DNA of 64,000 nt. It comes from Melampsora larici-populina 98AG31 (Eukaryota > Basidiomycota > Pucciniomycetes > Pucciniales > Melampsoraceae). The position numbers and the translations under genes are program-made. The stretch is from positions 1,885,681 through 1,949,680 of the forward strand of contig NW_006768771.1 of assembly GCF_000204055.1 (NCBI RefSeq), read 5' to 3'. The notes beneath the pieces were generated by a model. The model did not search any database, was not told the DNA's origin, and was given only the letters and a program-made list of their open reading frames with translations. This document shows, in pieces, positions 23,024-57,842 of the stretch (positions are counted from its first letter, which is position 1; each line of letters begins with the position of its first letter).

Positions 23024-26000
23024 ATGGCATCAGCCGTACCTACCCCCGCTCGAGTTAACCCTGAAGACATCCCAGGCAGTCACGCTGCTGCTGCTGCTCA
23101 AGCCGATGGTTCCAAGGCTGAAGCCAAGGTCAGACTCTTCTTTCTCCTTTTCTTTTAAATTCGGGTCAACCTTTTCCTGTTTTTCCTTTTCCTGTTTTTC
23201 CTCTTGATTCGATCTCTTACATCAGTTTTTTTACCTTATCTTCACCGTAGATGGACATCAACGTCCTTCTCACCAACACTGACAAAGCTGCCCGCGACAG
23301 CGCTGCAAGCGAGTTAGTTAACATTGTCAAAGTAAGTCATCATGGTCTCATCAAAATTATTTCTTGTCCGACTTTATTTTGACTTCAAAAACTTTTCTAG
23401 ATCGAAGGTCCCCAGGCTTTTGTTCGTCTCGGTCTTTCTGACGCGATCGTCAAAGGTTTGACCGACAAGAAAAACGCCACCGCTCGTGAGGGTGCCTGCA
23501 CACTTTTGAGCAGTTTGTGCGAAGCTGGCGTTGGTCATGCTGTCGAACCGTTCGTTTTCACTCACAGCGACTCGGTGGTACTTAACGAGCTTTTGGAGGT
23601 TCTCGGTGACAAACTTCCGGTCGTCCGTGATTCTGCCCTCGCCGCTCTCAAGAGCCTCGTCAAGATCATGACCCCATGGGCCTTGCACTTGATTCTCCCC
23701 GTCTTACTCACTCAAATCGCCAATGCCGGTAAATGGCAAGTCAAGACTGGTGCTCTCGAAATCTTGGACGAGCTTGTCGTCAGTTCTGCCGATCAAATGT
23801 CCAAAGCAATGCCCGACATCGTACCTGTTTTGGCTGCTGCCATCTGGGATACGAAAGCCGATGTCAAAAAGGCAGCTCGTGCCTCTTTGACTAGGGCTTG
23901 TGCTGTTAGTATTTGCTCCTCTCTTTGTATCCTCCAGTTTTAGCCTCAAGACTGACTCTTTGTTTTACACCCTTCCTCAGTTGGTATCGAACAAGGATAT
24001 CGAAAAATTCATTCCTGCTTTGATCTCTGCTTTGATCAACCCGGTCGAAGAAGTACCAAAGTGTATCCAGCTGTTAGCTGCTACCACTTTCGTATCCGAA
24101 GTCGATGCACCAACGCTTTCTCTCATGGTACCTCTTCTTACAAGAGGATGTAACGAGCGACCTACACCTACCAAGCGTAAAGTCGCCGTGATCACGGACA
24201 ACATGGCCAAACTTGTCGACTCGGAGGTCACTGTCCGACCCTTCATTCCCCAACTCCTTCCCGCCCTCATGAAGATGGCCGATGTCACCGGTGATCCTGA
24301 AGCGCGTGGTGTTGTCAACAAAGCCATCGCAACCGTCCGTGAGGTCGGAAAAGTCCCAGCCGACTCTGATGGAACCAACATGCCGCCTTTCAAGAAGCAC
24401 TCTCCTGCTGACACGGCTAAGGCATTTGTCGCATCCATCAAGAAGGCCGGTGGTAGCAGCCAACGGGCCGCCACCAGCACAGACTCTCCCCTTGTCATCT
24501 TTATCTCTGAGATCGGAGCTGCGCTAGTGAACGCTCGTAACTACGAGCTCACCGAGTGGGAGTCCGCCCTTGTCCCATATGTCACCTTGGCCTTCGATCC
24601 TACAATTGCCGTTCAGAAAGCTCCAGGTGTCGTACGAGAAGTGCTCGAGCAAAGTGCCAAGGAAGAAGGTGACGTCGTTGAAGTATTTGAAGATGAAGAA
24701 GAGGGCGAGGACTTGTGTAACTGTACCTTCTCTCTTGCTTACGGAGCCAAGATTCTTCTCAACACCGCCACTTTACGATTGAAGCGAGGTCACCGTTATG
24801 GGCTTTGTGGAAGAAACGGTTCTGGCAAATCTACTCTCATGGTATGTTTTGTATCTTTATACTCTTTCACACCTGGCACTGATGAATGCTATCCGCCCTC
24901 TGTGTTCACTAGCGTGCCATCCACAACGGACAAGTTGAAGGCTTTCCGTCCCCCGATGAAGTTCGAACATTCTACGTTGAACACGATATTGACGGATCCG
25001 AGGCCGAGATTGCAATCATTGATTGGATAGACTCTGACACCCGTATCCAAGCCACTCGAGACGAGAAATCCAAGGCGCTAGCTGAGGTCGGTTTCTCTCC
25101 GGACCGACAAGGACATGCCATCGGATCACTCTCTGGTGGTTGGAAGATGAAACTTGCTCTTGCCCGAGCAATTCTTTTCAAGGCCGATATCTTGCTGCTT
25201 GATGAGCCTACCAACCATTTGGATGTGCTCAACGTTCAATGGCTGATGGACTACTTGAAGTCTCTTGAGACTTGTACCTCGATCATCGTCTCTCACGACT
25301 CAGGCTTCTTGGACAATGTTTGTACCGACATCATTCACTTGAACCGATTCAAGATCAAACGTTATCCTGGTAACTTGCAAGCCTTTGTTCAACGTGTACC
25401 GGAGGCCAAGGCCTATTACGAACTCTCAGCTCTTGAAGAATATCAATTCAAGTTCCCTGACCCACCTTTCTTAGATGGTGTCAAGACCAAGGAAAAGGCG
25501 CTGATGAAGATGAGGAAAGTCGGATTCCAATACCCTGGCTCTCCTGCTCAACAATTGTACGATGTTACCCTGCAAGTCTCCCTCAGTTCGCGTGTCGCCG
25601 TCTTGGGTCCCAATGGAGCTGGTAAATCTACCTTGGTGAAGTTATTGATTGGTCAACTCGAACCGAACAAGGGTGGTGATGTATGGAAGCATCCTAACTT
25701 GGTCATTGGATACGTTGCCCAACATGCTTTCCGTGAGTTTCTCGATCTCTCGTGACGTGTCTCTGCACACCTTCTGAATCGTATTTCTATCATCCAGACC
25801 ACATCGATAACCATCTAGACGACACCCCGCTCCAGTACCTCCTCAACCGATACCAAACTGGAGAAGATATCGAGGAATTGCAAGCTGCCAACCGACAGTT
25901 GACTGCAGAGGAAGAGAAGAAGATGAAGGAAGGTGGAGTAGTGGTAGTCGAAGGCCAAAAACGATTCATCGAAGACATTACCAACCGAAAGAAATTGAAA

Positions 26001-32596: not shown

Positions 32597-33521
32597 CGAT
32601 GATCATGACAAGGATTGAGCAATGGACCCATTCGAAGCCCCTCCTCGAATTCCCGGCCGTCCTCTCCGTTCTTGCTTTGTCAACTCTCCTGTTGTGAAGT
32701 TCGGCTTTGCAGGGTTAACAGCGGATTGAGGGCATATGCCATTGCGTCAGGATGGGGTCAAAATGTACGGCCCAGATCAAGGTTTTCTCCGTCCCTCGAT
32801 TAAGGTCGCGCTTGGCTTCAATTCCTCTAGAGTCATTCGCATCTACCCACGGTGGTCACAACTTTTTATCCTCTCTGGCTGTGTATTATAATATGTATGT
32901 CTTTGATGCAAATATGATTTTCACCTATATTCCCAACCTCGAGTCCCATTCACATTCCTCCCCAATCCCCGTTGCCCTTCTCCTGCCCACTTCTTTGATG
33001 AGACTGTGGCACCCTTTGGGGCAACTTTGCACCCACAGCCTCGTCACTCAGTGGGCAAATATCAAAGTTTTTAATGTCCTCTTTTTCGCTATCGCCCGTA
33101 TTGGTCCTCATGGATGATGATCGGTGATTGATAGTAGAGGATCGACATTTTGCCTGTTTGTATCTCTCGATGCTGTACCTAAATGAATGAGTAATAAAAA
33201 ATTGCGTTTATCATCACTAAAAAATTGAGCGATTGAACCTCCGTCAAAATATTGTACGTGTCCGACGACCATTAGCCACAGCTCAAATGCGCCAGTAGCT
33301 GTTCTTTCCTTGCGCTGGAGTTCTGAACCCGAAGCCTGCGTATACTCTGAATGTGGGCTTCCTGGGGTGAGATGTCATGAGATTTAGAAGGGAAAAATTG
33401 GACTTGGAAAAAATGGACTTGGAAAAAAAGTGCGATCACAAAGTTTTCTGAATTTCCTCTTGAGCCGTCAAAGTGCTGCTTCCTACTGGCAAGACCCTTT
33501 TTTCATATTGTCCATATGCTA
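32597..33521. other. Intergenic, left flank of the large transposon
   Basis: No supported gene. Position 33400-33435 repeats GGACTTGGAAAAAATG/A twice. The last two bases, TA at 33520-33521, are the left target-site copy for the element that starts at 33522. Confidence 0.5.
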
Positions 33522-33616
33522 CAGCCGTTCCAAGAATTATCGGCAGATTTTGGGCAAAACCCTGTAAGTTTGGCAAAAACCCAAACGGACAAAACTCAAA
33601 ATAAAACTAGATTTTG
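33522..33616 (+). repeat. Left 95-bp terminal inverted repeat
   Basis: Matches the reverse complement of 48491-48585 at 94 of 95 bases (the mismatch is A at 33600 against G in the other arm's reading). It starts CAGCCG directly after TA (33520-33521). CAG is a usual Tc1/mariner terminus. Confidence 0.93.
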
Positions 33617-34090
33617 ACCAAAAACTAGTTTCTCAGGCGCCTGAATCTCTCTGTTTCCACCATACCACATGTTCACGATTGTCCAAGCCCGCTTCAATGG
33701 CACCTGTCAAAGATTCACACGGTTCTCACAATTGGATTCTCACGCTTCATCATCTGTCTTGTTTGTACTGGTATTCAACACATGTTCGTGGCTCCAGGGC
33801 TTGAGCCTCCACTCCTCCCTACTCCTCATCATCAGGACCAGGTATGATCTCAATATCCGTGTTTCCTGGACTTACCACTCGACTTCTTCTTTCAAGCAGA
33901 CGGATTGTTCCCAACTTCAGACCATCAGATCAGCACGTCCTCATCATTGAAAGGTACGTTTTTCATGACTTTGGCACTTTTGTTTTTGAATGTATTGAGC
34001 CAAAGCTCACATCAATTTGATATTGTTATTAACTTTTCACTTCCCATGCCGATGTTTCTTTGCAAGAAGGGCCCTTGGATTTTGTTAATA

Positions 34091-34264
34091 CAGTCAACTC
34101 CCTCTAATTACATACAGTTTGGCGGGTGTTTTTTTCATGCACTTAAAGGAATATGCACTTATAGACCTCATTTTGGCTGGCAAACCCCTTTTTGGCGGCA
34201 AAAAATCCTATGCACATAGAGAATTATGCACTTACAGGGAGATCAACTTAGAGGGAGTTGACTG
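34091..34264. mobile_element. 174-bp MITE nested inside the large transposon
   Basis: Ends are CAGTCAACTCCCTCTAA and its complement TTAGAGGGAGTTGACTG (one base off in the inner part), flanked by TA at 34089-34090 and 34265-34266. The interior repeats TATGCACTTA/AATTATGCACTTACAG motifs on opposite strands, so much of the element is palindromic. This is a second, unrelated Tc1/pogo-type terminus and has no coding capacity. Confidence 0.8.
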
Positions 34265-34360
34265 TATACAGTCTAGATACGCCGGTTCCTCTTCCGATAA
34301 GCCCACGAAGTGCAACTTCCGACATTTCTTTCCAAGACTACTCCCATTTATTCTGTGATC

Positions 34361-34702
34361 GAAGATTCCTTTAGAAGAACTCCATTTGTCTAGTCAACAG
34401 TGAGTCGTCACTTTCATTCGTACCAAAGATTCATTTCAAAGAAGACCCCAAATTCCTTGATACTGACATTTATTGAGTGTTTGAAGATTCCATTTGAAAA
34501 ACTCCATTCGTCTAGTCAAAGTGAGTCGTCACTTTCTTTCGTACTAACCAAAGATTCGTTTCAAAGAAGACCCCAAATTCCTTGATCCTGACATTTATTG
34601 AATTTTCGAAGATTCCATTTGAAAAACTCCATTTGTCTAGTCAAAGTGAGTCGTCACTTTCAATCATACCAAAGAACCATTTCAAGAAGACCCCAAATCA
34701 TT
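34361..34702. repeat. Three-copy tandem repeat, about 123-bp unit
   Basis: Units begin GAAGATTCC at 34361, 34483 and 34608 and each holds, in order, ACTCCATTTGTCTAGTCAA, GTGAGTCGTCACTTTC, a CCAAAGATTC word, and GAAGACCCCAAAT. The TGAGTCGTCA core is a near-palindrome resembling a bZIP (AP-1/CRE-like) site, present three times upstream of the companion gene start at 35060, so it may act in its promoter; that role is inference. Confidence 0.75.
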
Positions 34703-35059
34703 CGATTCATTCTTTTTGCGCGGATACAAACTTTGGTCAACTACGCAAGAAGAACCTCGTTTTCTTTCTGGCCGGCCAATCTTGGGATCCAACGCCTATA
34801 AAACCTCACTGGTGTTCCAACAGAGCATCACTTTTTTCTTCATCAGCTTATTGATAACCGCTTCCATCTTGAATACTTTTCACTCAAAATCTCCCCCAAG
34901 ATTTATTGACTGCTCCAGCAATCATTTTTTGAGACCTTAGATATCAGTCTGTCCCCTTGTTTATTTCATATTTCATATGTATATGGCGGCTTTTTTCTTT
35001 TGGATAACTGATATTATAATTCTTTTTTTTATTCTTGTTTTTCAATATATAGAACCACC

Positions 35060-37535
35060 ATGTCCAACTCCAACTTGTTGATTTCAAACTTGTCTGCTGT
35101 GTCCTCGCAAAATGAGGCCAATATCGTAGCGTCCGTGGTTACCGAGGAGACTGCTCCACGTCCAAGCGTGAATGATGCCTTGGGTGAAGAACGTAGGTGA
35201 CCATTTTGCTGATCTTGCTGATTCGGATAACCAACTGATTGATTAATTTTGGCCTTCAGCACTTGAAGCCTCTGCCACTATCACCACCGGTGATGATGCC
35301 GCCGCAACTGGTTGGATGAACGCTTGTAAGTTTTTTTCCACATATCAAATGTTATCATAGCACTGACTATCATTTGAGTTTCAGTCTTTGAGCCACCCAC
35401 CCCTCATCTCATGGGTGCGGATGCCCCTGCCCATCTTGTTGATATGGGACCATTGCATCGTCCTGGGACCTCTGAGCGTGATCAATTTAATTGCGCTCAC
35501 GAGGTTGTTGTTCAAGTGTTGTTTAAGATACACACTGAGAACGAGGTCGTGCTCACCAACCCAGACAATTCCACCAACTCGACTTCGACCAAACCATCTA
35601 CTGGCCGCCGCTCAGTTGGAACTACGATCAACGTCATTGATTCTAAGGTCTTCAACGAGGGTGCCATTCATGAGTTACGAGCTTGCCTGGTTGGTGTCTC
35701 CTTGAATCAATTCAAGGTGATGTGCGCCGAGTTGTGCGAGCGCTATGCGCCCGGTATGCATCAAATGGTCCTCCATTCGGACGTGGCATCCAATCTCACT
35801 TGGAAGGCCTCCGTTGGCCGAACTTCTCCGGCCTTTGTGCTGGGTGACCCGCTCCAGTTTTTCAACTTTGTCAACGGTGTCACCAAGTCGCGAACTCGCC
35901 GGGCATCCCTTTTAATTCATACCGAAAGCTCCAAGGTGGCTGCCAAGAAGAAGGCCCAGGTAAGTTTTTTGGACTTGTTTCGTTTCTATCCAACTTCTTG
36001 ATGCAAGTTTTTTTCTGGTTTTTTAACGTTGTTTTTTTATCTTTATTTGTATGTTTCTACTCGCTCCACTTAGGCCTCTGCTGCAAAACAGCTGATCGCA
36101 TCTGCCAACGGCCCTTTGGCTTTGGAACTTGACCTTGCCAAATCTAACGAGCGTTTGCAAGTATGTAGCTTTTCCTGACTTTCATGCGAGCCGTTACAAA
36201 CTGACTCTGATTTGGAATCCGACTTGCAGGCCTCTGAAAAACTAGTGGCTTTGCACAAGTTGACAGCTGAATTGTTCCACATGTACGCTGAATCGGGCAA
36301 CGCCGGCGGCGATGGAGTGGTTATGGTAGCTCCATGGGATCCTAACTTTCACTATTGCTTCACCCTGGCTTGTGCCTTTATTTGGGCCCAAGCAATCGTA
36401 AGTCTTTTAATAGTTTATTTCTAATGTTATCATTCTAAAACGTATGCTACCTTTGCATGAAACCAGGAGCGTTCTGAGGCGAACAAACACATGCCTCCCA
36501 ATTCCAGCGAGTTCAAATCCGAAATAGCAAAAACCCGAGTCTTACATCCGGGTTTAAAGTTGAAAGACCGGTTGAAACTGTGTTTTCCATCTCTTAAGAT
36601 ACATCGTGTTACTAATGTTGGCGCTTCTAAAAAGCGCCAGGTTGAAATGTCACCTACTAAGAAACAGGGTAAATACCGGACTTTGGGTTATGGCTTGGTT
36701 TCCCCCTCCTCGCGTGCAACCGCAAGCAATAAGAAGACTGGTAAGCATTACAACTGTTGTTTGATTGTGTTTTCCAATTGATGTTTTCGATTTTTCTCAT
36801 GTTTGGCCTTTCTTTTCCGTCCATCAGAAAAATTGAATAACATCGATTTAATTTCTTCGTCCGATGAAGAAGACCTCAAACCATTGAAATTGAAAACTGG
36901 TAAGCTCGTGTTTTTTGACCTCCAAATGTTGCAACTAGTTTTGACGTTTCCAATTATTATTCAGAAGGCGTCAAAATAGGATCTCCTTCCATCCGACGCT
37001 ATAAGCGAAATGAGCTTTCGGGAAAAGCTTCGTCCACCAAGAAGGCTAAGGTTGAGCCAGGTAAGACGTGTTGCAACTTTTCGTGAAAAGACTTACCGGA
37101 AAAACTAATCCAGTATTGCGTCTTTTTAATGAGCAGAATTCAAGACCGAGCTCAATTCAGGTGAGTGCTTGTCATGAATGTAATCCATTCATTATCTTGC
37201 TGATGTCTGATGTCTGCGTTTGATATCAGACGGCTTTTTGCCACCCCCTGATCGATTCTATTATCTAGAAGAAGACAAGGCTGTCTACTCCGATGCCGTT
37301 ATGTCTGCTGCCGATAACGATGAGCTCGAGCTCCTCATGGAGCACATGAGGAGCTCGAGCTCCTCCTTGATCAGTTTGTGAAGGAGTGTGGTGTCACCAA
37401 GAACTTCAACCACACGCGCAACATCTTGCTCAACTTGGGGATCAAGTCATGGATTGACCTTGTGCCCAGTGTAAAGATGACTGAGGCGGTTTTGATAGAG
37501 TATGGTATTCCTCGCGAGCTTGCTACCCGTATGTT
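35060..37535 (+). pseudogene. Transposon companion gene, 5' part (exons 1-10), disrupted
   Basis: Exons 35060-35192, 35260-35325, 35385-35959, 36074-36160, 36230-36397, 36467-36740, 36828-36899, 36965-37060, 37137-37160 and 37230-37535 join in frame. The product is of unknown family: an acidic Ser/Thr-rich N-terminus, a folded-looking central part (residues about 75-350, with FNEGAIHELRACLVGVSL and CTLACAFIWAQAI-like segments), then basic, SDEED-containing linkers suggestive of a nuclear protein, and a C-terminal SAM-like domain (LDQFVKECGVT, NILLNLGIKSWIDLVP, VLIEYGIPRELATRML). Two lesions break it: a 29-bp palindromic insertion (37337-37365) that shifts the frame to a TGA at 37379, and the Copia insertion after 37535. 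Removing both and continuing from 44280 leaves 611 codons in one frame. Confidence 0.8.
37322..37365. repeat. 29-bp insertion forming a perfect hairpin
   Basis: GAGCTCGAGCTCCTC occurs at 37322-37336 and again at 37351-37365, separated by ATGGAGCACATGAG. The result is an 18-bp perfect inverted repeat (37322-37339 against 37345-37362) with a 5-base loop. The extra 29 bp shift the companion gene's frame by two. Confidence 0.85.
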
Positions 37536-38807
37536 TGTTAAGATACTATCTTGATTATGTAGTCAAAGATACATTTTCCCTATTTTGGTAATTGAGGAGG
37601 TTTAGAAGAATGCAGTGACTGATGTGCAGTGGGTACGAGTAGTGTGTTTGTTAGTGGGTATTACTGAGATGAATAAAGGGGTAAATTATGGAAGTTGGAA
37701 TCAAAGGGGTGATGGAATTATTTGGGGGTTAACTGGACTCTTTTGTAATTTCTCTTTGTCTCTTTTTCTGATTCTTTTCGTGTCGAAAAGAATCAGTGAG
37801 TCTTTCCTCAATTTCATTATACATCACTTTTAAGACTATGTGTCCTTACTAATCTCATTGCTGCCATTGTAGAAACTGTTTATTTTATCTTCTATTAACC
37901 TTTACGCGCGCTCTCTCATTTCCTGACGAGCACGCAGGTAGAGACTCTTTTATAACTTATCAAAATCTCTTTTCTGATAGTTCTCTTTATCTCACACTAT
38001 ATCCTTTTTATGTTGTTAGGTTTGTCTGTTCTTGTTCTCGAAGTCTGACTAGCGAAAACGATGAATAAAGGGGTAAATTATGGAAGTGGAAATCAAAGGG
38101 GTGATGGAATTATTTGGGGGTAACTGGTCTCTTTTGTAATTTCTCTTTGTCTCTTTTTCTGATTCTTTTCGTGTCGAAAAGAATCAGTGAGTCTTTCCTC
38201 AATTTCATTATACATCACTTTTAAGACTATGTGTCCTTACTAATCTCATTGCTGCCATTGTAGAAACTGTTTATTTTATCTTCTATTAACCTTTACGCGC
38301 GCTCTCTCATTTCCTGACGAGCACGCAGGTAGAGACTCTTTTATAACTTATCAAAATCTCTTTTCTGATAGTTCTCTTTATCTCACACTATATCCTTTTT
38401 ATGTTGTTAGGTTTGTCTGTTCTTGTTCTCGAAGTCTGACTAGCGAAAACGCTGTAGTCTGATTTGGAACCTGTGCCCTCAGGTTAGTGTCGTGTCGAAA
38501 AGAATCAAAACTGTTTATTTTATCTTCTATTAACCTTTACGCGCGCTCTCTCATTTCCTGACGAGCACGCAGGTTTGTCTGTTCTTGTTCTCGAAGTCTG
38601 ACTAGCGAAAACGCTGTAGTCTGATTTGGAACCTGTGCCCTCAGGTTTGTCTGTTCTTGTTCTCGAAGTCTGACTAGCGAAAACGCTGTAGTCTGATTTG
38701 GAACCTGTGCCCTCAGTGTTCTTTCTTTACTGTAGCGTTTTCAAGCAGAGACGTCAGCTCAAGATTCTTTTGGAATCTCGAGACCTTCAACTTCGAGAAA
38801 CTTTATA
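37536..38807 (+). repeat. 5' LTR of the Copia element with internal duplication
   Basis: 1272 nt, starting TGTTAAGATACTATC and ending CTTTATA, against 881 nt for the 3' LTR. The excess is a tandem duplication of about 391 bp: the stretch from GATGAATAAAGGGG at 37668 is repeated from 38060. Each copy has a perfect hairpin (CTGATTCTTTTCG, 3-base loop, complement; 37768-37796 in the first). The distal end contains two to three tandem copies of a 74-bp unit starting AGGTTTGTCTGTTC. Confidence 0.92.
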
Positions 38808-38849
38808 TGGTAGCAAGAGTGAATACGATCTCTTCGACCGATTGCTTGT

Positions 38850-41800
38850 ATGAGTTCTAGTTCTGAAAACTTCGATATCTCAACTGTCGACGATTCTCAA
38901 GACAATAGCTCAACTGTTACCGGAGGCTCAAGCACCTCAAGTTCTGCCGATTCCTTTGGAACGGTTAAACAATCTTTGTCAGATCCTAAGTCTTTGGACG
39001 ATCAACCTGGTCCATCTGATAACCCCGAGTCTTCGATACTCAATCTCAAAATGTCAGAAAATACTGATTCACGAGTTTTCGGTGACTCTATTCAAAAATA
39101 CTCTCAGATTATGACAAATGCGCTTAGTAAATACAAAGTATCAGATGATCTAACTGATGAAAACTATACCGAGTGGAGTCAGTCGTTGATGGAGGTGTTC
39201 CGTTCTCTGGAGCTTCATCAATATGTCAAAACAAAAGATTTTCAAAAATCAACTCTCACTCCTGAAGAGCAAGAAAAGACGCGATTCAATCTTACCACCT
39301 ACATCTTAAATCGCTTGGACTCAGTCAATAAAGTCAGAACTCGAAACCGACTGACTGATCCCGAAGATCCTTCCGAACTGATCTATGATCCATACTTGTG
39401 CTGGAATTTTCTTAAGGAATATCACAACCGCATCTCCGAAGATAAATTGGAAACTGTTACTCGCGCTCTGTACTCATGTCAAATCATCAAGACAGATTCT
39501 CTCTCATCCTTTGTGGATAAATTTGAAAACTTGATTTGTGAATTTTATCGCCTGAAGGGCGAATTGTCTGATGCGCAGTCGGCGCGAATGTTACTGGGCG
39601 CTATTCCCGCACTGTCAATTGAGACAAAGGAATACATTCACAACACTGTGGTTCCTTTGACTCGGGAAGGCGTAGCATTGTATCTTCGCAAGTACGAAGA
39701 AAGACATGGTTGGACTTGTGCGGCCATTCGCGAAGTCCATGCAGTCAATGTGGTATTGGTTCGCCCTGGAAAGAAGACGTCTGGTGAATGTACTCCGGAT
39801 GAATGCTTTGGACCCCATCTAGCGAAAAACTGTTGGTCGAAACCTGAAAACGCAGACAAGCGACTTGCTTTCTTGGCCAAAATTCGCGGAAAATCAGGGG
39901 GTGGTAGTTCATCTTCGTCAGCTCCAACTTCTCAATCATCACCATCAGTCAGAGGTGTGAAGAAAGTCTTCGATTCAAGCGTGAATACTGCTTCGGCCAG
40001 CATGGCTTTTCTGTCGCTTAATGTTGAATTCATTGAAGACGACGTTTCCGAACTTGAAAATCCTGAAGCGACTGCATCGCCGTCCGAATTCGACGAAGAT
40101 CCTGTCATTAGCGCGTCTGTTTCCGCCGCTCTCTCATCTTCAAGAGACTGGGCTCTACATGATACAGGTGCAACTCACCATATGTTCAAGGACATCAAGT
40201 TTTTTGATCAAACCTCTTTGACTAAGTTTGATGATGCAAGTAAACGCCTTAAGCTGGCTGGTGGCGATATTTCTTTAGCGGTTCACAGTCGTGGTATCAC
40301 AAAACTCTTGGCAGGTGACGATTCTGTCTTCGAACTCAAAAACTGTCTGTACGTTCCGGAACTGTCAAGAAACCTCGTCGCCGGAGGATTACTGAAGAAG
40401 CAAGGAGTACGAGAAATTTTCCACGATAGCAAGAATTTCTCATTAGTTTTGAATGACTTAGCTATTTTCAATGGGTTCATTTCAGACAACAATCTCATGT
40501 TTATCTTACTCGAACCCGTGAGTGGATCACATTCGTCATCAATCTCATCTTCAGTCACTGAGATATCCTCATCACTTCAACACCGACGATTAGGGCATGT
40601 AAGCAATAAATACCTGAAACTAATGGCCAAACTCGATAGTGTGGAGGAATTTGAGTACTTGGAGGAAGATTTAAACTGTGAAATTTGTTCCTTATCTAAA
40701 AATACAAAACTTCCTCACAATAAAACCAGGCCTCGTGCCCGAACTTTCCTTGAAAATGTGCATGTGGATTTAAGTGGTATTATTCGAACCACTGGTGTGA
40801 ACAATGAAAAATATTTTATTCTATTTTGTGATGACTACTCTGCATTCCGACACATCTATCCTCTAAATGATAAGACCAAAGAAGAAGTGTACGATGCTTT
40901 CATGGCCTACATAGCCGTTGCCGAAAGGCAGACAGGATGTTCTTTGAAACAATTCACACTTGATCGTGGTAGTGAATTTTTGAACAATCTACTTGGTCCT
41001 AAACTTAAGGAGCTTGGAGTTGTTCTTCATCTGACCTCAGGCTACGCTCCTGAGGAGAATGGGGTTTCCGAACGTGGTATGTGAATCGTAAATACCAGGG
41101 CACGTTCGTTAATGCTTGAATCTGCTATGCCAATTCGTTTTTGGTACTATGCTTGTAGTGCAGCTGTGTTCTTAACAAATCGTTGTGTCACTGCTGCTCT
41201 TGAAGGGGGTAAAACTCCATTCGAAATGTGGTATTTTCGGAAACCGTCGGTTAATCATATACGTGTTTTTGGATGCCAAGCGTTTGGTCTAATTCGAAAG
41301 GAACTTCGCGAATCAAAGTTTTCACCAGTCAGCTCTGAGGGTGTGTTGGTGGGATTTGAAAGTGACAATTTCAATTATCAAATCTTTGACCTGTCCTCTA
41401 GAAAGGTGTATATCACGCATCACGCAACTTTCAACAAAGATATTTTTCCATTCAAATCTCTACCGGCATCTTCTACAAGTGTTCCAGTTGAACAGGACAG
41501 ACGCTCAGTCAAAGTACTCTTCTTTGACGATGAAGATGATGTCGTCAATGAGCCAGTCTCTTTAGCTCCAACTTTTAACGACAACTCTCATATTTCAGAT
41601 CAGCCTGTTCCTTCTTCAATAATCAATCCGAGTGGGAAACAGGCAGAAGATGCACCTCGTCGTTCAAACCGAGCTTCAAAGAAGATTCACGATTCACTTA
41701 GTGGAATGTGTTCAGGTGCTGAATTTGAGGATGATTTTGTTACAGGATCTTTCTTTTCCTGTCTTCCTGTGGAGTGTAACATGGTGTCCATACATTCAAC

Positions 41801-43376
41801 TCCTGATCCAAAGTCATACAAACGGGCAATGGCTTCATCTGAGGCTGATTTGTGGAAGGCCGCCTGCGACAAAGAGTTTAACTCTCTCAAGAAAAAGGAG
41901 GTCTGGGAGCTAGTCCTTAGACCTAAGGATCATAACGTAATCAGGGGTCTGTGGGTGTTCAGAAAGAAGCCGTTGGTGGATGGAAGCATCAAGTATAAAG
42001 CTCGATTTGTTGCAATGGGTAATACTCAGATACCGGGTCAAGATTACGGTGAAACTTTCGCACCAACCGGGAAACCAGGCTCTTTACGAATTCTGATAGC
42101 CATTGCCTCAATAAATGGTTGGGAGGTTCATCAAATGGACGCTGTGACCGCTTTCCTTAACGGTATTCTAGAAGAGGAATTGTATGTTGAAATACCTGAA
42201 GGGTATCGGACTGCGTCAACTGTAGGAAAAGTGTGGAGAATGAAGAGATCACTCTATGGATTTAAACAATCTCCGAAAATCTGGCAAGACAATGTTGAAG
42301 AGTTCCTCATTGAAATCGGTTTTTACCAGTGTGAAATTGATCACTGCATCTATATTCGCTCAGTTGGTAAATTATTCACTGCTGTTTATGTTCATGTCGA
42401 CGACTTAGCCATTACAGGCAATGATATTTCAACATTCAAAACTCAAATTGCTGCTAAATGGGAAATGGAAGATTTGGGTATAGCTCATACTGTAGTTGGT
42501 ATTCAAATTCAAAGAATTGATAATTTTACTTACTCAATGAGTCAACAACAATATGCGTTAACTGTTCTCAAAAGATTCAACATGACCGATTCAAAACCAG
42601 CAATTACACCGCTTTCTCCTAACGTCAAAATCTTAAAATCAACTGAAGAAGAAGCGGCCGAATTCGCCAAGACCAAACTTCCATACAGAAGTGTGGTTGG
42701 ATCTTTGATGTACCTAGCTCAGTGTACGCGTCCTGACATGGCTCATGCTGTTGGTGTTCTTTCACAACATCTTGAAACTCCCAACAAGCTTCATTGGGAT
42801 TCAGCCATGCATGTACTTCGATACTTATGTCATACTATCAACATTGGCATTGTGTACTCTGGAAATGCACCAAAAGTGGTTGCCGGTCAACGGAGTTTTC
42901 AATGTCCTGTTTCTCATTGTGATGCTGACTGGGCCGGAGACGTGAACACCCGAAGATCCACAACAGGTTATGTATTTGTGCTTGCCGGCGGTCCTATATC
43001 CTGGAGAAGTCGTCTTCAACCTACAGTGGCCTTGTCATCGACGGAAGCTGAGTACAGAGCTATTACTGAAGCTGGTCAAGAGCTGTTGTGGTTGAGAAAC
43101 ATGATGGAACGGTTTGGCTTTAGTGATCCTAATCCTACGGTGCTTCAAAGTGATAACTTGGGGGCAATTCATTTGACTTCTAAATCAATTTTTCATGCAA
43201 GAACTAAACACATTGAAATTCATTATCACTGGATTCGTGAGGTGGTCAAGAAAGGTGATCTGGTTTTAAAACATTGTCCAACTCACTTAATGGTGGCTGA
43301 TCTCTTAACTAAACAACTTCCAAAGGAACAATTTTCAATTCTCAGAAAAGGTTTGGGTTTAAGGTTTTTGGGATAA
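38850..43376 (+). pseudogene. Copia Gag-Pol polyprotein with one in-frame stop
   Basis: 1508 codons in one frame, broken once by TGA at 41082-41084. In order: Gag (TDENYTEWSQSLMEVF), a zinc-knuckle-like CTPDECFGPHLAKNC with unusual C-X4-C-X3-H-X4-C spacing, aspartic protease (ALHDTGATHHMF), integrase zinc finger (HRRLGHVS, CEIC) and catalytic residues (VHVDLSG, LDRGSEF, EENGVSE), reverse transcriptase (HQMDAVTAFLNG, VYVHVDDLAIT) and RNase H (ALSSTEAEYRAI, ARTKHIEIHYHWIRE). The stop falls right after the third integrase catalytic residue, at a position usually Arg, consistent with CGA to TGA. Otherwise the frame is intact. Confidence 0.93.
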
Positions 43377-43393
43377 TGCTCTTTGAGGGGGTG

Positions 43394-44274
43394 TGTTAAG
43401 ATACTATCTTGATTATGTAGTCAAAGATACATTTTCCCTATTTTGGTAATTGAGGAGGTTTAGAAGAATGCAGTGACTGATGTGCAGTGGGTACGAGTAG
43501 TGTGTTTGTTAGTGGGTATTACTGAGATGAATAAAGGGGTAAATTATGGAAGTTGGAATCAAAGGGGTGATGGAATTATTTGGGGGTTAACTGGTCTCTT
43601 TTGTAATTTCTCTTTGTCTCTTTTTCTGATTCTTTTCGTGTCGAAAAGAATCAGTGAGTCTTTCCTCAATTTCATTATACATCACTTTTAAGACTATGTG
43701 TCCTTACTAATCTCATTGCTGCCATTGTAGAAACTGTTTATTTTATCTTCTATTAACCTTTACGCGCGCTCTCTCATTTCCTGACGAGCACGCAGGTAGA
43801 GACTCTTTTATAACTTATCAAAATCTCTTTTCTGATAGTTCTCTTTATCTCACACTATATCCTTTTTATGTTGTTAGGTTTGTCTGTTCTTGTTCTCGAA
43901 GTCTGACTAGCGAAAACGCTGTAGTCTGATTTGGAACCTGTGCCCTCAGGTTAGTGTCGTGTCGAAAAGAATCAAAACTGTTTATTTTATCTTCTATTAA
44001 CCTTTACGCGCGCTCTCTCATTTCCTGACAAGCACACAGGTTTGTCTGTTCTTGTTCTCGAAGTCTGACTAGCAAAAACGCTGTAGTCTGATTTGGAACC
44101 TGTGCCCTCAGGTTTGTCTGTTCTTGTTCTCGAAGTCTGACTAGCGAAAACGCTGTAGTCTGATTTGGAACCTGTGCCCTCAGTGTTCTTTCTTTACTGT
44201 AGCGTTTTCAAGCAGAGACGTCAGCTCAAGATTCTTTTGGAATCTCGAGACCTTCAACTTCGAGAAACTTTATA
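43394..44274 (+). repeat. 3' LTR of the Copia element
   Basis: 881 nt, same termini as the 5' LTR but with a single copy of the 391-bp segment. Differences include three G to A changes at CpG sites (CACGCAGG to CACACAGG, GACGAGC to GACAAGC, AGCGAAAA to AGCAAAA in the distal repeats, about 44028-44075), fitting methyl-CpG decay. Short frames across it are not genes. Confidence 0.93.
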
Positions 44275-44418
44275 ATGTTGCATAAGGCTGAGGAACGTAG
44301 CCTTGCGCAAAAGGCAGGTATGTTACACTTCCTGGTCTTCACCGTGTTTCCATTACCCTACTGACCATGATCTCTCTTTGTGTCTGTCCACACAGAAGTC
44401 AAAGAAGAGGCCAAATGA
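44275..44418 (+). pseudogene. Companion gene, 3' part beyond the Copia insertion
   Basis: Begins with the second ATGTT target copy and resumes the coding frame broken at 37535 (MLHKAEERSLAQKA), with an intron 44318-44395 and the terminal exon 44396-44418 ending TGA. Splice donor GTATGT and acceptor ACACAG are normal. It closes the SAM-like domain with a short acidic-basic tail (EVKEEAK). Confidence 0.8.
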
Positions 44419-45392
44419 ATCAAATCGTCGAGATAAGCCAAATTTCCAAGTATGTTGCAATTTTCCTTGTTGATCATCACTGTTTGGCTTTCATAGTACT
44501 GACATACCATCATCTTCCTCTCGTGTGTACACACAGCAATTGATCTTTTGGCTATTCGATTTCACTTGATGTTCCTCACTCAATTTTTGTCACCACTGTG
44601 ATATGATATTCAATTCCCCATTTCCAATATCCCCCCTTCCCTTTGTGTCTTTCTTAGTGTTCTATTGATTTGCAGCTTGTAATTCATCAGCCCGTTTAAC
44701 CTTGACCAAGCAAAGAATAAGTTGTATCCCATCCGCTAGAAATGAAATAGTACCACAAACGTATCCTGTCCTCACGTAGTGTTCAAACATCTTCTCGCGC
44801 CCAATTGAGAGATCTTGAGAACCATTGCATATGTGCCATCACATATAGTTCACCATTATATTCATCGTGGCCAAAGTGACCTTCAATGATGAATAAAAAG
44901 GATGACTTTTGAAAAGATTTCATGTTTCACTCACTCCTATCTTTTGATGTGAGTGAGTAAAACATGGAATCGTGTTTTCCATAGAGACTAAGTTATGGAA
45001 ATTTCAGTTTCCATAACTATTTAAACTTGTCACTGGGTCTTGTTCCTATTTGCGTGAACATGACTCATTTATAGAGAACTTTTCAAATCAAAAGTCGATT
45101 ACTGATCCGACAGAAAAGTCTCACTTGATGTCTCAATTAAAGGAGCGTCTCGGTCATGAGGGCATGCGACTTGAAGGATTTGCAAATAGAGGCTTTCAAT
45201 ATTACTAAATTGAAGACACAAAAAGGCATGCGAACACAAGTTGGAAGATTACACTAATCAAGGGACCACAAGATGATAACGAAACTGCACTCTAAGGTTC
45301 AATAAGATTGGAAAAGTTGAATCCACTTGGCAAACAAAACAACCTTTTTAATAATTCTCAAACAAGTAGACAACGCACACAATATGAAATCA
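44419..45392. repeat. Spacer between the two convergent transposon genes, with two hairpins
   Basis: No gene. A 16-bp inverted repeat (CATGTTTCACTCACTC at 44921-44936, complement at 44951-44966, one mismatch) and an 11-bp one (AGTTATGGAAA at 44991-45001, complement TTTCCATAACT at 45008-45018) sit close together. They could be transcription-termination structures or a small MITE. Confidence 0.6.
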
Positions 45393-45599
45393 CTATAAAT
45401 AACTGCACCCTTTAAAGAGTGACTCACACAAGTCAGAAGTAAACAACTCCATACATGTCACAAAAATTCTCGCCTCTTCCTCTTCAGCATTCAAACAGTT
45501 TTGCATCTCTTGAGTTCTTCTTAATCTCGCCTTCATTGGTGAAAATCCTTTTTCAATTGGATTAAAGTCCGGGCTGTAAGCCGGGAGTTAGATGAGTCG
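45393..45599 (-). pseudogene. Transposase, C-terminal fragment
   Basis: Minus strand reading gives LPAYSPDFNPIEKGFSPMKA, the third catalytic (E) block of IS630/Tc1 transposases, followed by about 45 residues and TAG at 45393. It is the missing end of the transposase at 47237-48149. An in-frame TAA replaces the codon before LPAYSP (usually Tyr) and a small frame change is needed at the junction, so the gene carries at least two lesions besides the insertion. Confidence 0.85.
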
Positions 45600-45605
45600 T
45601 CACCA

Positions 45606-47230
45606 ATATGTAGAACTTATAACCCAACAAGGGTTATACAGAGCTGGAAGAGGATAATCTACTAATAAAATGACTAGTAGAAGTTGTCTAAGGACTGCTC
45701 TTCTAAAACAACACAATCAGAAAGAGCTCTGTTGTATTGAGTACTGATAAGGCACCAGAGAAATATAACTTCACACGTAATTTTAACTTCAAAAGCACAC
45801 TTTGTATTACTATCAACACTGCTATAGTGTTATTCCCAATTGATAACTGAAAAAAAATAAGCAATATCTGATTGATATTATTCCCAATAAGTCTTTATGA
45901 CTATAAAACTAAAGTAAATTTCTCTTTATAACTGTAATAAAGGGCGTATTTAAGTGAACAGGTACTATTAAAATAAGTTTATGATGATAAACAAAATAAT
46001 AATGGCGTAAATGATAAAGAAAAAAAAAGGGAACAACAGTCCCAAAACCCTCTCAAAGTATATATAACAATGTACTAGAACTTTTACAATGGTCAACAGC
46101 CTCAAAACCAATCAAATCCGCCCAAAATTCCCTAAAAACCCTATGATGACGCAATGTAATGGTTTTGTTACTAATAAATGATGTAATTTTCACAGCTAAA
46201 AGTGATCAATGACGCAATAATATGATGTACAGCACTTCTTATGATGAATACAGGTGATTTTTTCCTTGTAAACTAGCTGAAAACCAATTTTTTGAGATTA
46301 CGAATTTTTTCAGATGTGCTCCAATTTTTGATTACTAAAGTGCATCTTGTAGTCCACGTGTTACTGATCATTTCTGACACCTACATGACCTACTTCTGAT
46401 GAGTGATGAGTAAGATATTGAGTTGTGAAGTTAAGGTTTTTAGTGTTACATATGACTTGTGACTGTAAATTCGAGATTCACACCAATTCTTTATTTGCCT
46501 TATAACTTTTTACACACACCTCCGTTACTAATGATTTAAAGTTTGTACATTATGTAATCCACTCTTCTGCGTTGAATGAGCCATCTACCAACCTATTCTG
46601 ACGTCATTTGACATATGTAATTAGCTGAAAACCTCCATTTTCCACGAATTTCACCCATTTTCTTCACTTTTCACAGCTACTACTAAGCCTTTCTTGCTCA
46701 TGTAATATTACATCATCATCTATAGCCTTAAAAATCCCGGAAAATCCTCTTGGCAACCTTAAATTCCATCACTACCACTATTACACAACCAAACTACACG
46801 TGTACCTCTTGTTTACCAACTTCGAAAAAGTGCTTTCTTCCTAATAACTTCTGTTTCTACTTATCAACCTTGAAGATTAAAATTTTCATAGTATCATATA
46901 ATGTTGTTCTTTCATATTCTAACCTCATAATACCCATAACTTTATTTTTACTAACCTAAAAACCATTTTCCAACCTTTATACCTATAATTTCGAATTTTT
47001 CTTATGTTTTTCTTTCTTTCTTTTTGTAATAAATTTGTAAGTAAACTATAATGATCTTAATATATAATGTGAAATAAAATAATGTAATGTTGACCTAATG
47101 ACCAATACATAAGCCTACAAGAGCTTCAATTGATCAAAAACCTCCATTTCGAATTTTCTTTCCTGCTGAATCCTGCTAATAAACTGGTAAACTGGTAATT
47201 GTGAATTTTTTAATTGATCCCATAAATTGA
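45606..47230. mobile_element. 1.63-kb AT-rich insertion splitting the transposase
   Basis: Lies between the second and third catalytic blocks of the transposase. The hexamer TCACCA stands at both junctions (45600-45605 and 47231-47236), consistent with a target-site duplication. The insert is markedly AT-rich, has no long frame with a domain, and I find no convincing terminal repeat, so its class (degenerate LTR, non-autonomous DNA element or other) stays open. Confidence 0.7.
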
Positions 47231-47236
47231 TCACCA

Positions 47237-48149
47237 CAACGTGCCGCACAGAGGGGTGCCACATTTCCTCCATGATGTATTGGAGCGTTGTCCATGACTA
47301 GGACGCTGTTGCGTTGAGGCCACGGGTTCATCGCCGGTAACTGCAAGTCACAGTGTTAGTCTCGTAATCAACTTGAGAAATTATAGGTAGGGAAACCAAT
47401 TTACCAAATGGTTTTCCAAAAAGTCCTCAAAATCGAGCCTCGAGTAACCGCCCTTTCTGGTCTGAACGGCGAGAATCCCATCAAGCGATATCGCCGGCAA
47501 AACGGACCAGCGAGTCGCTCGAGTAGGTCTTTGGAGTCTGACTGTACGTTCCCCAACGGGCGCTCGGGCAAACTCGCGATAAAGCCTTCTTTTGCTCAGA
47601 GCAGTCTCGTCTAGAATGATGTGAGACAGCGCAGTTATCAGTAAGTAACAAGACAGTTAAAACAGATGCCAATGGGAAATGCGTACCTGTGAAAACCAAG
47701 CACCGGGGGTCGATGTTGTGGACGGCCGCAATGTAGGCACCTCGAGCCTCCGCAGATTGATTCGGATTCACAGTGTGAGCCTTCTTTCGAGTCCAGAGAA
47801 GGCGGTCTCGGAGCTCGTTTGAAAGTGTTTGAATAGAGACTTGGACCCCATGAGCATTTTGGATTCGTTCTTGAAGCTCGTCAAGGTACAAGGTCGGATC
47901 GTGACAAAGAGATTCAAGGATGAATTCGCGTTGAGCCGCACCTAACGAGGTTGGTTGACCACGCCGCATGTGGTCAAGGGGATTGGTGATAACAGCACGG
48001 GTGGTTCGATAGAGCTCGAACCATCGTCGAACAGAGGTGAGGGAGACATCAACCCCAAGGGATCGAACAATCTCTTGGAAGCGCAAACCACGCAACACCA
48101 TGCGCACGACAACTACCTTGATATCGGCACTGTAGAGATTGACGGGCAT
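47237..48149 (-). pseudogene. Tc1/mariner (IS630) DD34E transposase, N-terminal and central part
   Basis: Minus strand, exons 48149-47687, 47610-47405 and 47340-47237, joining in frame. An N-terminal helix-turn-helix (YSADIKVVVVRMVLRG, FQEIVRSLGVDVSLTSVRRW) binds the TIRs; the catalytic core has first Asp in CLVFTDETAL and second in NSVLVMDNAPIHHG, with the Glu block in the separate fragment at 45393-45599. Counting across the insert gives 34 residues between the second Asp and Glu (DD34E). Two introns of 76 and 64 nt split it. Start chosen at MPVNLYSADI. The right TIR begins 340 bp upstream. Interrupted, so probably inactive, but able to be served in trans. Confidence 0.9.
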
Positions 48150-48490
48150 CCCTAAAAGCAAAAGTGGTGGGTGAGTAAGGTGTTGAGCCAGTAGTAGGGT
48201 AGATAGAAAACGAACTGACTGAATTGTCAAGGATTAATACGATGTGGATAGTAGGATTGGATGGATACAATGTGGATGATGGATGATTGGGGGAAAAATT
48301 CGAAGGAATTAGAAAAAAAAATCAGAGAGAAATGGGGGCAAATGATTGGAAAATGAGGAAAACATCCGGATGAGAAAAGAATATGTCAAAAGAACATGTG
48401 GCAACCTCGGAAAGGGATACTATGGATATCCAAAGAGAACTGTCAATGAATCTTGACGTTCTCTCACAAATGACGTCAAATCTAGATTTG

Positions 48491-48585
48491 CAAAATCTAG
48501 TTTTATCTTGAGTTTTGTCCGTTTGGGTTTTTGCCAAACTTACAGGGTTTTGCCCAAAATCTGCCGATAATTCTTGGAACGGCTG
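48491..48585 (-). repeat. Right 95-bp terminal inverted repeat
   Basis: Reverse complement of 33522-33616 with one mismatch. It ends GGCTG and is followed by TA at 48586-48587. Confidence 0.93.
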
Positions 48586-49060
48586 TAAGCCATTCTCAAA
48601 CTTTCATTGTTGTCCAAATTGTGTCTTTTGAATCTTTACATACAAATGTGTCATTTGTGTGAAATTGTGTCCTGCTCTAGATGTTTGAAAATCAAAGTTA
48701 AGCTTGTTGATCATCAATAAAATCCTGAAAATGGCTCAAGTTGTCAGGGAAGAAGCAGGACTTCAATTTTGTCAGGAAGAATCTGAAAAAGTCTTCTGTG
48801 GTGAAAGTCTTTTATGTGCCAGTTTTCCCCTACTAAAACGTACAAAGCCTTGTGATTGGTAACTTAGTATTATTAACAAAGGGGAACAGGGATAAATTTG
48901 GACTTATTTGTTTGACAGTACTGACCTTGTTGGATACTTTACAGTTCTATCTAGTTGACTTCAATGAGCTCATAGCTGTTGGCCACCAGCTCTTTACCAC
49001 CAAGTCAAATTTTATCCCATTGAGTTCACCTTCATCCAGATATTTCATTTCAGCTAGTTA
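48586..49060. other. Intergenic, right flank of the large transposon
   Basis: About 470 bases with no supported gene or repeat between the transposon's TA and the next MITE. Confidence 0.5.
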
Positions 49061-49550
49061 GAGCATCTCCAACGCAGGGTGCGAACGTAACAAATCGGAC
49101 GCACATGTAAGCTGTATGTTACGTCTACCAACCTTGGTCACAAAACGGCCATCCAGCGGGGTCTGAATAGTTGACAGCTTACCATGTGTGTGAGTTTGAA
49201 TTTCCAGCAAAATGCCTTTCACACAGTTGGTACTCCAAATATGGAGTACCAACTGAACTTTTACAGCAAGCTACATTGGCCCAGTATTGGACAGGCATTT
49301 AGCACATGTGGTGATAAAGTCACCACATGTGTCCTATCCTCTTGTTGTCCAGCCAATTGATGGCTATTTGGTGGCTCAATTGGGTGAGGGTTTGGCAACT
49401 TGGGCAGCTCAAAGCAACTCAAAAACTTATACCTCATGTGCGCGCTGGATGCAACAAAGCTGAAAATGAAATACAGCTGTCATAATTTTTCCAGCAATTT
49501 TTTTTGGGTCTGTATTTGGTTTACAGAACAGGTCCGCATTGGAGATGCTC
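49061..49550. mobile_element. PIF/Harbinger-type MITE, 490 bp
   Basis: Termini GAGCATCTCCAA and its complement TTGGAGATGCTC, with the 3-bp direct repeat TTA at 49058-49060 and 49551-49553. Trinucleotide T(T/A)A duplication and this terminal word are typical of PIF/Harbinger MITEs. No transposase inside. Confidence 0.82.
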
Positions 49551-55145: not shown

Positions 55146-57842
55146 ATGGCACCTAAACAAACAGCTCATCACCATCGATCTACCCTGTCTCAGTCCAACA
55201 AGTCATTCAAAGCTCGACATGCAACCAAGGGAGCACTAAAACAACTATCCAAAGGTTTGTGTTATTCGTTTACACTTATTCATTCATTCCCATGTGATAT
55301 AGTGACACATTACTGATGACGTATTTCTTTAAAACTTGCAGGTCGAGTTGAAAAAGAATTGAAACAATCTCTTAAAGCACATGTTCAATCCAGTGCTGGC
55401 CAAAAGGCTGCTCGTAAAAACCATGCCAAGCAACTACAAGCTGAGAAACGTCGAGCTCAAGCAGATTCAATCAAAGTCTTCTCTGGCTCACAACCTGCGC
55501 CTCGTATCGTTCTCGTGATTGCGCTCTCAGCCGATATCGATCCATACAATGACGTCCTCGTCCGCTTCAAACTCGCTGCTGGTCTTCCCCTCGATTGTGA
55601 CGAACCAACCGCTAGCTCGTACACCTTTTCGTGGCCTACTACGAACTCATTCCAAAAGCCCAACTCAAATGGAAGCCTGCTTCAATTCATCCTGGTCCCT
55701 CACTTGACTCCGATCGCCCACGTCATTTCCCTTGCTGCTGCCGCCGATTTCTTACTCCCTGTACTATCAGCTCAAGAAGAATGCACTCCTTGGGGTGAAC
55801 GTTGTTTAAGATCAATTCAGGCTATCGGTGGACCTTCGCTTGGTACTCTTGGACTCGCCTTTGGTCTCGATACACTAAATGGACCAGATCTCCCAGTGAA
55901 ACGTCAACAATCCGCGCAAACAAGAGCAAGCTTATTGAGCTTCTTGCGATACTTCTTCCCCGATACACTTCTCTTGGCTCGTGTTAGCTCTCTTGATTCA
56001 TTAGAAGAAGTGGGCGGATTGGCACGGAGGATGCTAGAGAAAAAGCCCGCTGCAGTCTCACCTGGTTGGCGTGATGGACGAGCCCGGCTGATAGGCGAAT
56101 GTATCGAGTGGGTCGATGGAACGCTCAAAATTACAGGCCATGTTCGCGGTGGAAGGTTCAGTTCAAACAGACTTGTCCATGTACCATTTTGTGGCGACTA
56201 TCGACTGTCAAAAATCACCGTCACGAGAAATGAGAATGAAGAGGGAGAGGAAGAGGTAGTAGTCTGCAGTCCTGATCCTGAGATGGCAGATGATCTGGTC
56301 TCCGAGAACTGCCCCTCTACCGCCGATGCGATGATGGCCGAGCAAACCTGGCCAACGGAGGAAGAGATTGCTTCAGCCCCTGCAAATAAAGCTGCTTCAA
56401 AACCTAAGAGAACCCGAAAAATACCGATCGGTACAAGTGACTACCAAGCTGCATGGATTCCCGAGGGTCAAGAAGATGAATATGAAGACGAAGATGAGGC
56501 TGAGTTCGAGGACCCCCTTGGTGGTGACAGTAAACATGAAGTGACCCGGGAGGAAGAGGAAGAAGAGATGGCAGATATGGATGATGATATGTCAGAACAT
56601 GGACAATCATCGAAAGAAGTCAGGTTCATGGACTTATCGGATGATATAGAGAAACTCCAGCTAGAGGAATACCGAGCGAATCGGGAACAACAACGAACAA
56701 GCGGTGCTCGTGAGGATGAAGAATTTCCTGATGAAATCGACACTCCTCTTCATATACCTGCCCGAGAACGTTTTGCTCGTTATAGGGGCATGAAGAGCCT
56801 ACGGACTAGTCCATGGGATCCTTACGAAAATCTACCTGCGGAGTATGGGAAAGTCTTCGGCTTTCAAGACTGGAAGGTGATGAGTAAGAAGCTGTGTAAA
56901 AAAGCTAACGAGGACCAACCCGGAGCGGTGAGTGATCTGCTTCATTCATTCATCATGCCTCAGCATTTGTGACTGACTCATTCTTACAGGGTGCTGGAAT
57001 GCGCGTGACACTACATGTGGCCGAGTTCCCACAAGATGTATTTGAAAGCCTACCTCGATCCCTTCCACTCGTTGCAGTCTCCCTCCTCCAACACGAACAC
57101 AAGTATTCAGTGATGCACTTCTCTACCCAGCGCAATACGGAATACGAAGGCGAAATCAAGTCAAAGGATCAATTGGTGATCTGTGTAGGTTATAGATTCT
57201 ACAGTGTCAATCCCATCTGGTCTCAGCCTTCGGTGCGAGCAAGCAATAATGTTCATAAGTTTGAGCGGTACTTGAGACATGGTCGAATGAATGTCGGGAC
57301 TGTGTACATGCCCGTTACGTTTGGATCCACAACGCCTGTGGTTGTCCTTCAGGAGGTCAATGATGACGAGGGTACGTTGGAATTAGTTGGATCCGGCACA
57401 TTGGTAGGCAGTGAACCGAAGCGGATCGTCGTCAAGCGATTTGTCTTGACCGGTCATCCATACAAAGTACACAAGAAAACAGCTACAATCCGCTACATGG
57501 TGAGTATTGTATTCTCATGAGATTCATTTTCGCATATCTGCTCACTGTGCTGACATTGATATTGATCATGCTAAGTTTTTCAATCGAGATGATATTGAAT
57601 ACTTCAAACCGGTCGAACTACGAACCAAGAAAGGTAGAAGTGGTCATATCAAAGAGCCACTTGGTACACATGGTTACTTCAAGGCAGGATTTGATGGTCC
57701 AATCGATCAGATGGACACAATTTGTATGTCTCTCTATAAGAGATGTTTCCCAAAATGGGCTCAAGGTTGGAATGGCTCACTTAAGTCAATATGTTGGCAA
57801 GAAAAGGAAGATGGAAAGGGGATGGAAGTTGATGAAGATTAG
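55146..57842 (+). CDS. TSR1: Ribosome biogenesis protein Tsr1 (BMS1/TSR1 family)
   Basis: Four exons: 55146-55254, 55342-56927, 56990-57499, 57576-57842; 787 aa, almost the length of yeast Tsr1 (788). N-terminus MAPKQTAHHHRSTLSQSNKS plus FKARHATKGALKQ is diagnostic. A degenerate GTPase-like domain (PRIVLVIALSADIDPYNDV) lacks a usable P-loop, as expected for Tsr1, followed by the AARP2-type central domain (LIGECIEWVDGTLKITGHVRG), a long acidic region (about 360-450) and the conserved C-terminal translation-factor-like domain (WDPYENLPAEYGKVFGFQDW, HKYSVMHFSTQR, RYLRHGRMNVGTVYMP, FFNRDDIEYFKPVELRTKKG). Tsr1 binds late pre-40S particles and blocks premature initiation-factor joining. First intron donor is GTTTGT. 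Confidence 0.95.

Follow-up and report, generated by a model that had tools for sequence, protein, structure and literature searches.

The window analysed here is a 64,000-nucleotide stretch of the genome of the rust fungus Melampsora larici-populina 98AG31 (contig NW_006768771.1, positions 1,885,681 to 1,949,680, forward strand). At positions 33522-48585 it contains a transposon of the Tc1/mariner type, bounded by terminal inverted repeats (TIRs) whose ends read TA|CAGC. Between them a transposase gene and a second gene, referred to below as the companion, converge, each lying closer to one end. Elements of this build form a widespread two-gene Tc1/mariner lineage in this genome, a variant that is new to judge from the literature searched. 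The copy in the window is dead, and we put the probability at about 0.8 that it represents a broken copy from a large two-gene lineage with a DD34E transposase, whose companion is an accessory acting with the transposase.

Pairing and co-inheritance of the two genes

All family counts come from this one genome (98.3 Mb searched). When the window companion exon at 35384-35959 was used as a query, 106 matches were obtained, 86 of which had a convergent transposase within 20 kb, while one was otherwise oriented and 19 had none. Queries with the diverged companions first recognised in units C1, C16, C24, and C7b, described below, returned 25 matches (18 convergent), 36 matches (26 convergent), and 22 matches (15 convergent), and two more companion queries returned 65 and 62 matches, many shared with the set of 25. 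Merging gave 209 companion loci, of which 147 converge with a transposase, 5 have another orientation relative to one, and 57 have none. Transposase loci were collected with a 152-aa piece (150 of 412 candidates scored) and with the catalytic piece of another unit, C58 (150 of 491 scored); a convergent companion was present within 20 kb in 149 of the 181 merged scored loci, and within 8 kb in 140. The preliminary description of this DNA proposed a unit of Tc1/mariner type whose second gene is conserved, and this holds far beyond the window copy. With ~209 loci, the companion is not, within this genome, a single syntenic host gene, an alternative that had also been considered there.

Random placement of companions (200 draws, with each contig's size set to the highest coordinate observed on it, 60.8 of 98.3 Mb in all, and repeat clustering ignored) paired a mean of 4.5 and a maximum of 10 of the 209 companions, compared to the 147 observed, and chance adjacency of the two genes was rejected. 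Companion presence was 80/92, 11/13, and 32/45 for transposases that, over the 152-aa piece, were at least 53%, 45-53%, and less than 45% identical to that of the window. The idea that divergent transposases (<53% identity) lack a companion, suggested by the window exon query (0/58, or 1/58 by nearness alone), was discarded: the early contrast reflects a sensitivity limit, since the diverged-companion queries raised the counts to those just given. At C14:1549563, C63:190869, and C1:3377548, companion copies have open frames although the surrounding 20 kb holds no scored transposase; they could be relics or domesticated genes.

Fourteen two-gene loci were read whole, and a TIR pair was found in 13 of them (C7, C22, C129, C58, C54, C2, C40, C4, C5, C1, C16, C24, and C7b), with TA|CAGC at both ends in every case. 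Lengths including the TAs were 3958-7712 bp in 11 of the 13, the exceptions being C7 (15,068 bp) and C129 (13,386 bp). Units C1, C16, C24, and C7b, which are TIR-bounded and 4.0-4.9 kb long, each have a convergent second gene. The 34-residue spacing between the second D and the E that defines DD34E was read in 8/13 units; the motif was unmatched in the other five, the window copy included. Matches to DDE_3 in the domain scan reached 1.3e-17 in C58 and 1.2e-15 in C24. A TIR pair was absent from the stretch fetched for C11 358425, which is near-identical to C2, and no pair bounding both ends was found for C57 and C65. Two TIR-bounded places lacked genes: C17 (3.9 kb) has the transposase N-terminal part only, and C11 97385 (2.15 kb) has a 27-aa transposase match. 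In companion-less C17 and C57 the transposase C-terminal part was unmatched too (the C17 stretch was partly masked), and both therefore look truncated. Near-identical copies exist in other subfamilies (pS 0.01-0.02 between C2 and C11; 99% companion identity among C16, C15, C74, and C1).

Selection was evaluated for 12 two-gene loci, with values given only for pairs with pN <0.33 (10/66 for the companion). Companion dN/dS was 0.08-0.20 at dS 0.8-2.7 in eight informative pairs, many dS values being near saturation; of the remaining pairs, one had saturated dS, and C2-C11, at 0.28 on a dS of 0.02, was uninformative. Transposase dN/dS was 0.05-0.20 where dS was finite, again with the exception of C2-C11 (0.36 on 0.01). 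The transposase and companion distance matrices, computed with the near-identical C11 included, correlated with r = 0.93, a value reached in 0/10,000 permutations. Both genes are inherited together and are under purifying selection through deep divergence. Taken with the fixed convergent layout, this shows that the companion belongs to the element, and a co-selected two-gene element is almost certain.

The distribution of element ends makes this picture less simple. The genome contains 216 instances of the end pattern TACAGCYGTTNNNAGAA, compared to 4 of a reversed control, and 84 of 100 listed matches had no companion or scored transposase within 14 kb inward, the companions scored being of the window's type (other types were found later). 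Of these 100 ends, 22 make up 11 short pairs of 207-936 bp; non-autonomous and relic ends are common. On the question, raised in the preliminary description, of whether the TIRs are mostly those of unrelated short miniature inverted-repeat elements, the result is mixed: many ends have neither gene nearby, yet seen from the genes, 149 of the 181 scored transposase loci have their partner. A TACAGC end was present upstream (1.5 kb) in 14 of 30 fetched companion loci, including L026 and L046, which have no transposase match in range.

Relation to known transposons

Single-gene Tc1/mariner elements are usually 1.3-2.4 kb long, and their transposases are textbook examples of self-sufficient transposition, hence their use as genetic tools. 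The lineage described here resembles Tc1, impala, and Sleeping Beauty in its TA target, TIRs, helix-turn-helix (HTH) and DDE_3 domains, and DD34E spacing; the ends of Tc1 begin with CAG, as do the ends here. It differs from them in its second convergent gene and in unit length (4.0-7.7 kb in 11/13; 13.4 and 15.1 kb in the others). A transposase as the sole gene is a typical, though not a defining, Tc1/mariner trait, from which 149/181 loci depart by having a companion. The retention of a selected second gene in a lineage of ~180 loci suggests that here, in nature, the transposase alone is insufficient, and many matched transposase-companion pairs are on hand for asking what the partner adds. 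The lineage would also explain ~200 repeated genes without a name in this genome, as components of transposons.

In MuDR the two genes converge, each lying closer to a different TIR, and the layout here is alike. MuDR, Harbinger/Nuwa, and other two-protein DNA transposons also combine a transposase with an accessory protein, a role inferred for the companion in the present case. The lineage is nevertheless not of MuDR type, because its transposase family is Tc1/mariner: the transposase pieces matched DDE_3 and Tc1-type HTH models, and no Harbinger model was matched. The Harbinger element Nuwa encodes a Myb/SANT protein, according to the part of the report dealing with it (PMC12730594), whereas no Myb/SANT match was found in the companion pieces scanned.

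The statement in the preliminary description that Tc1/mariner elements hold the transposase alone stands as the norm, but it has published exceptions, which we cite from the relevant passages of the respective papers. The ciliate TBE/Tec elements are, like the present lineage, Tc1/mariner DD34E elements with additional genes (PMC4724952, PMC12242761, PMC7325037); they are classed in Tc1/mariner with three genes, and Tec has a site-specific recombinase (PMC7325037). The TBE extra genes, termed surprising for Tc1/mariner (PMC12242761), have dN/dS of 0.1-0.3 (PMC4724952). They encode a zinc-finger/kinase protein of 57 kDa and a protein of 22 kDa, and the extra protein of Tec is a recombinase; the companion pieces scanned, which did not extend to the short exons, matched no zinc-finger/kinase or site-specific recombinase Pfam model. 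TBE accessory proteins left transposase DNA binding unchanged in E. coli (PMC12242761), a caution that partners of this kind may work at other steps. Some Mariner elements bear Fanzor, nuclease, or methyltransferase genes (PMC3627910), and the Fanzor- and methyltransferase-bearing ones share with the present lineage a mariner transposase accompanied by other proteins and a TA target site duplication (TSD); their extras vary between related elements, whereas a single protein family accompanies the transposase in the present lineage.

Among rust elements, PHISTA and ESTA likewise have a TA TSD and more than one gene, but they combine a Harbinger-like or EnSpm/RAG1-like transposase with a TET/JBP gene, compared to the DDE_3 DD34E transposase here (PMC12730594; the third protein of PHISTA lies outside this comparison). 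Tc1-Mariner elements are recorded from Pucciniales in a recent survey of transposable elements in rusts, the pertinent passages of which do not mention a second gene (PMC12210899). Our literature search, which partly missed the slash spelling of Tc1/mariner and did not extend to Repbase, did not turn up any description of such an architecture from rusts.

Possible function of the companion

No Pfam match was found in the companion pieces scanned, neither to an enzymatic domain nor to TET/JBP. PDB searches with single sequences and profiles gave nothing convincing (best E 0.0078, to a designed repeat protein). Structure models suggest, with moderate confidence, a PB1/ubiquitin-like fold for the N-terminal domain and, weakly, a SAM-like fold for the C-terminal domain; the linker between them contains basic stretches, as judged by eye. 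Alignment A1 comprised 24 exons from 30 fetched companion loci, that of the window included, after omission of L022, L027, L032, L039, L042, and L043 (near-duplicates or stops), while alignments A2 and A4 comprised 14 of the C-domain pieces that were detected at 21 loci.

With its putative PB1-like N-domain, a linker bearing basic stretches, and a putative SAM-like C-domain, the companion would most likely act with the transposase as an oligomerising adaptor, which may help to assemble the transposase on the TIRs or hold the ends and the target together. An oligomeric accessory is suggested by the adaptor-like folds and by the selection acting on the TBE extra genes. The chances that the companion is a transposition accessory, rather than a regulator or an anti-silencer, appear to us about even. 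A specific version, in which the PB1-plus-SAM adaptor polymerises and gathers the transposase, both ends, and the target into a two-protein machine, is put forward tentatively; we know of no such scaffold mechanism for eukaryotic cut-and-paste transposons.

The strongest competitor, although an unlikely one, is that the companion counters host DNA-methylation or chromatin silencing of its element, as is proposed for VANC and for TET/JBP proteins borne by transposons. It gains weight from the TET/JBP genes that occur in rusts on DNA transposons of other superfamilies, for which a role in removing epigenetic marks is proposed in the passages concerned (PMC12730594). A protein targeting the element's own DNA would also fit with subterminal repeats next to the companion. 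Such repeats were found on the companion side in 8/13 units (in C22 just a 31-bp pair) and on the other side in 0/13, an asymmetry that supports no claim, since the stretches compared differed in length (1500 versus 800 bp) and part of the right one is coding sequence. Against anti-silencing stands the lack of an enzymatic domain in the pieces scanned; PB1- and SAM-like folds, if correctly assigned, are those of adaptors, not erasers.

Less probable still is a copy-number regulator that represses transposase activity or transcription, e.g., by joining transposase multimers or binding subterminal repeats, and thereby keeps the element tolerable. The convergent genes, the repeats upstream of the companion, and oligomerisation folds that could poison transpososomes would all fit, but selfish copies should readily shed a repressor, and the great majority of transposase loci have kept the companion. 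Host-beneficial or captured host cargo we consider very improbable: the 57/209 companion loci without a scored transposase, some with open frames, make domesticated copies possible, but cargo would be expected to be swapped, while the companion mirrors the transposase at a correlation of 0.93 and is retained across sublineages. That two unrelated elements merely came together by chance or by nesting, to which the density of nested insertions in the region might point, is refuted in this genome by 147 convergent neighbours compared to a random mean of 4.5, and by 13 units in which matched TIRs bracket both genes.

Structure of the window copy and neighbouring genes

The repeat scan found only one inverted pair of at least 30 nt within 33000-49200, with arms at 33520-33616 and 48491-48587, 97 nt each including TA, and a single mismatch at 33600. 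Since both arms start with TACAGCC, the element proper spans 33522-48585, with TA target duplications at 33520-33521 and 48586-48587. The left TIR (33522-33616, plus strand, 95 bp, starting CAGCCGTTCC) found the right TIR (48491-48585, minus strand, 95 bp) at E 3e-42 in the genome search, plus 10 more-diverged matches (12 places, two being its own). These TIRs are as described previously, as is a unit of ~6.7 kb after subtraction of insertions, which agrees with 15,064 bp less the two inserts described below (by arithmetic; the inserts were not removed from any sequence). Subterminal direct repeats, three units of ~125 bp, lie between the left TIR and the companion (34345-34685, plus strand); they were found by the repeat scan, have related stretches in C22 and C129, and are candidate binding sites.

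As previously reported, a plus-strand multi-exon companion faces a minus-strand transposase. The companion exons were identified by visual inspection and from their similarity to other copies. From the first ATG at 35060, several exons with GT..AG introns extend to the first insertion (35060-37535, with homologous blocks in C22 and C129). Exon 3 (35384-35959, 192 aa), recognised by its matches in relatives, encodes the N-terminal domain modelled as PB1/ubiquitin-like. The C-terminal region (37227-37535), read by eye and by comparison with relatives, where it is modelled as SAM-like, has a broken frame; a short palindromic duplication lies near 37322-37364, and beyond it the C22 match continues in a different frame. 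Inserted in this region is a Ty1/copia long terminal repeat (LTR) retrotransposon (37536-44274, plus strand; repeat and domain scans), with the TSD ATGTT at 37531-37535 and 44275-44279. Its coding region consists of two open frames with one stop codon between them, and a tandem duplication of 391 bp seems to have lengthened its 5' LTR. A companion 3' remnant follows (44280-44430, plus strand; by eye against C22, end approximate).

On the minus strand, the transposase C-terminal piece with the catalytic E (45385-45596) was located by comparison with related units. The N-terminal piece (47239-48158; domain scan and comparison with relatives) has an ATG near 48149, HTH domains (HTH_32, E 5e-8, and HTH_33, 5e-6, both just above the cut-off), and, by eye, the first two catalytic D residues. 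Between the second D and the E, a 1642-bp insert (45597-47238) splits the catalytic domain, and DD34E, ascribed earlier to the window transposase, can therefore be read only in relatives. This insert has no stop-to-stop frame of at least 180 aa and has 38 further near-full-length genome matches at 99-100% (40 of 827 candidates scored); it is probably a recently active non-autonomous element. Both inserts were placed by comparing the window with C22 and C129, and because they interrupt the companion and the transposase, respectively, the copy is dead. The earlier proposal that it moved recently is only partly supported: its TIRs are 99% alike, but both genes are broken, and identity to the closest relatives found is 91% for the transposase and 78% for the companion.

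Elsewhere in the window, an RPE65-like (carotenoid-cleaving) gene at 4596-6812 lies in two frames and is likely one host gene, and an elongation factor 3-like gene (HEAT_EF3_GNC1, ABC_tran) is located at 23891-25030. A Tsr1-like ribosome biogenesis gene is found at 55320-56972, and a weak tyrosine-recombinase-like match (Phage_int_SAM_5, below the cut-off) at 59500-60537 possibly marks a Crypton.

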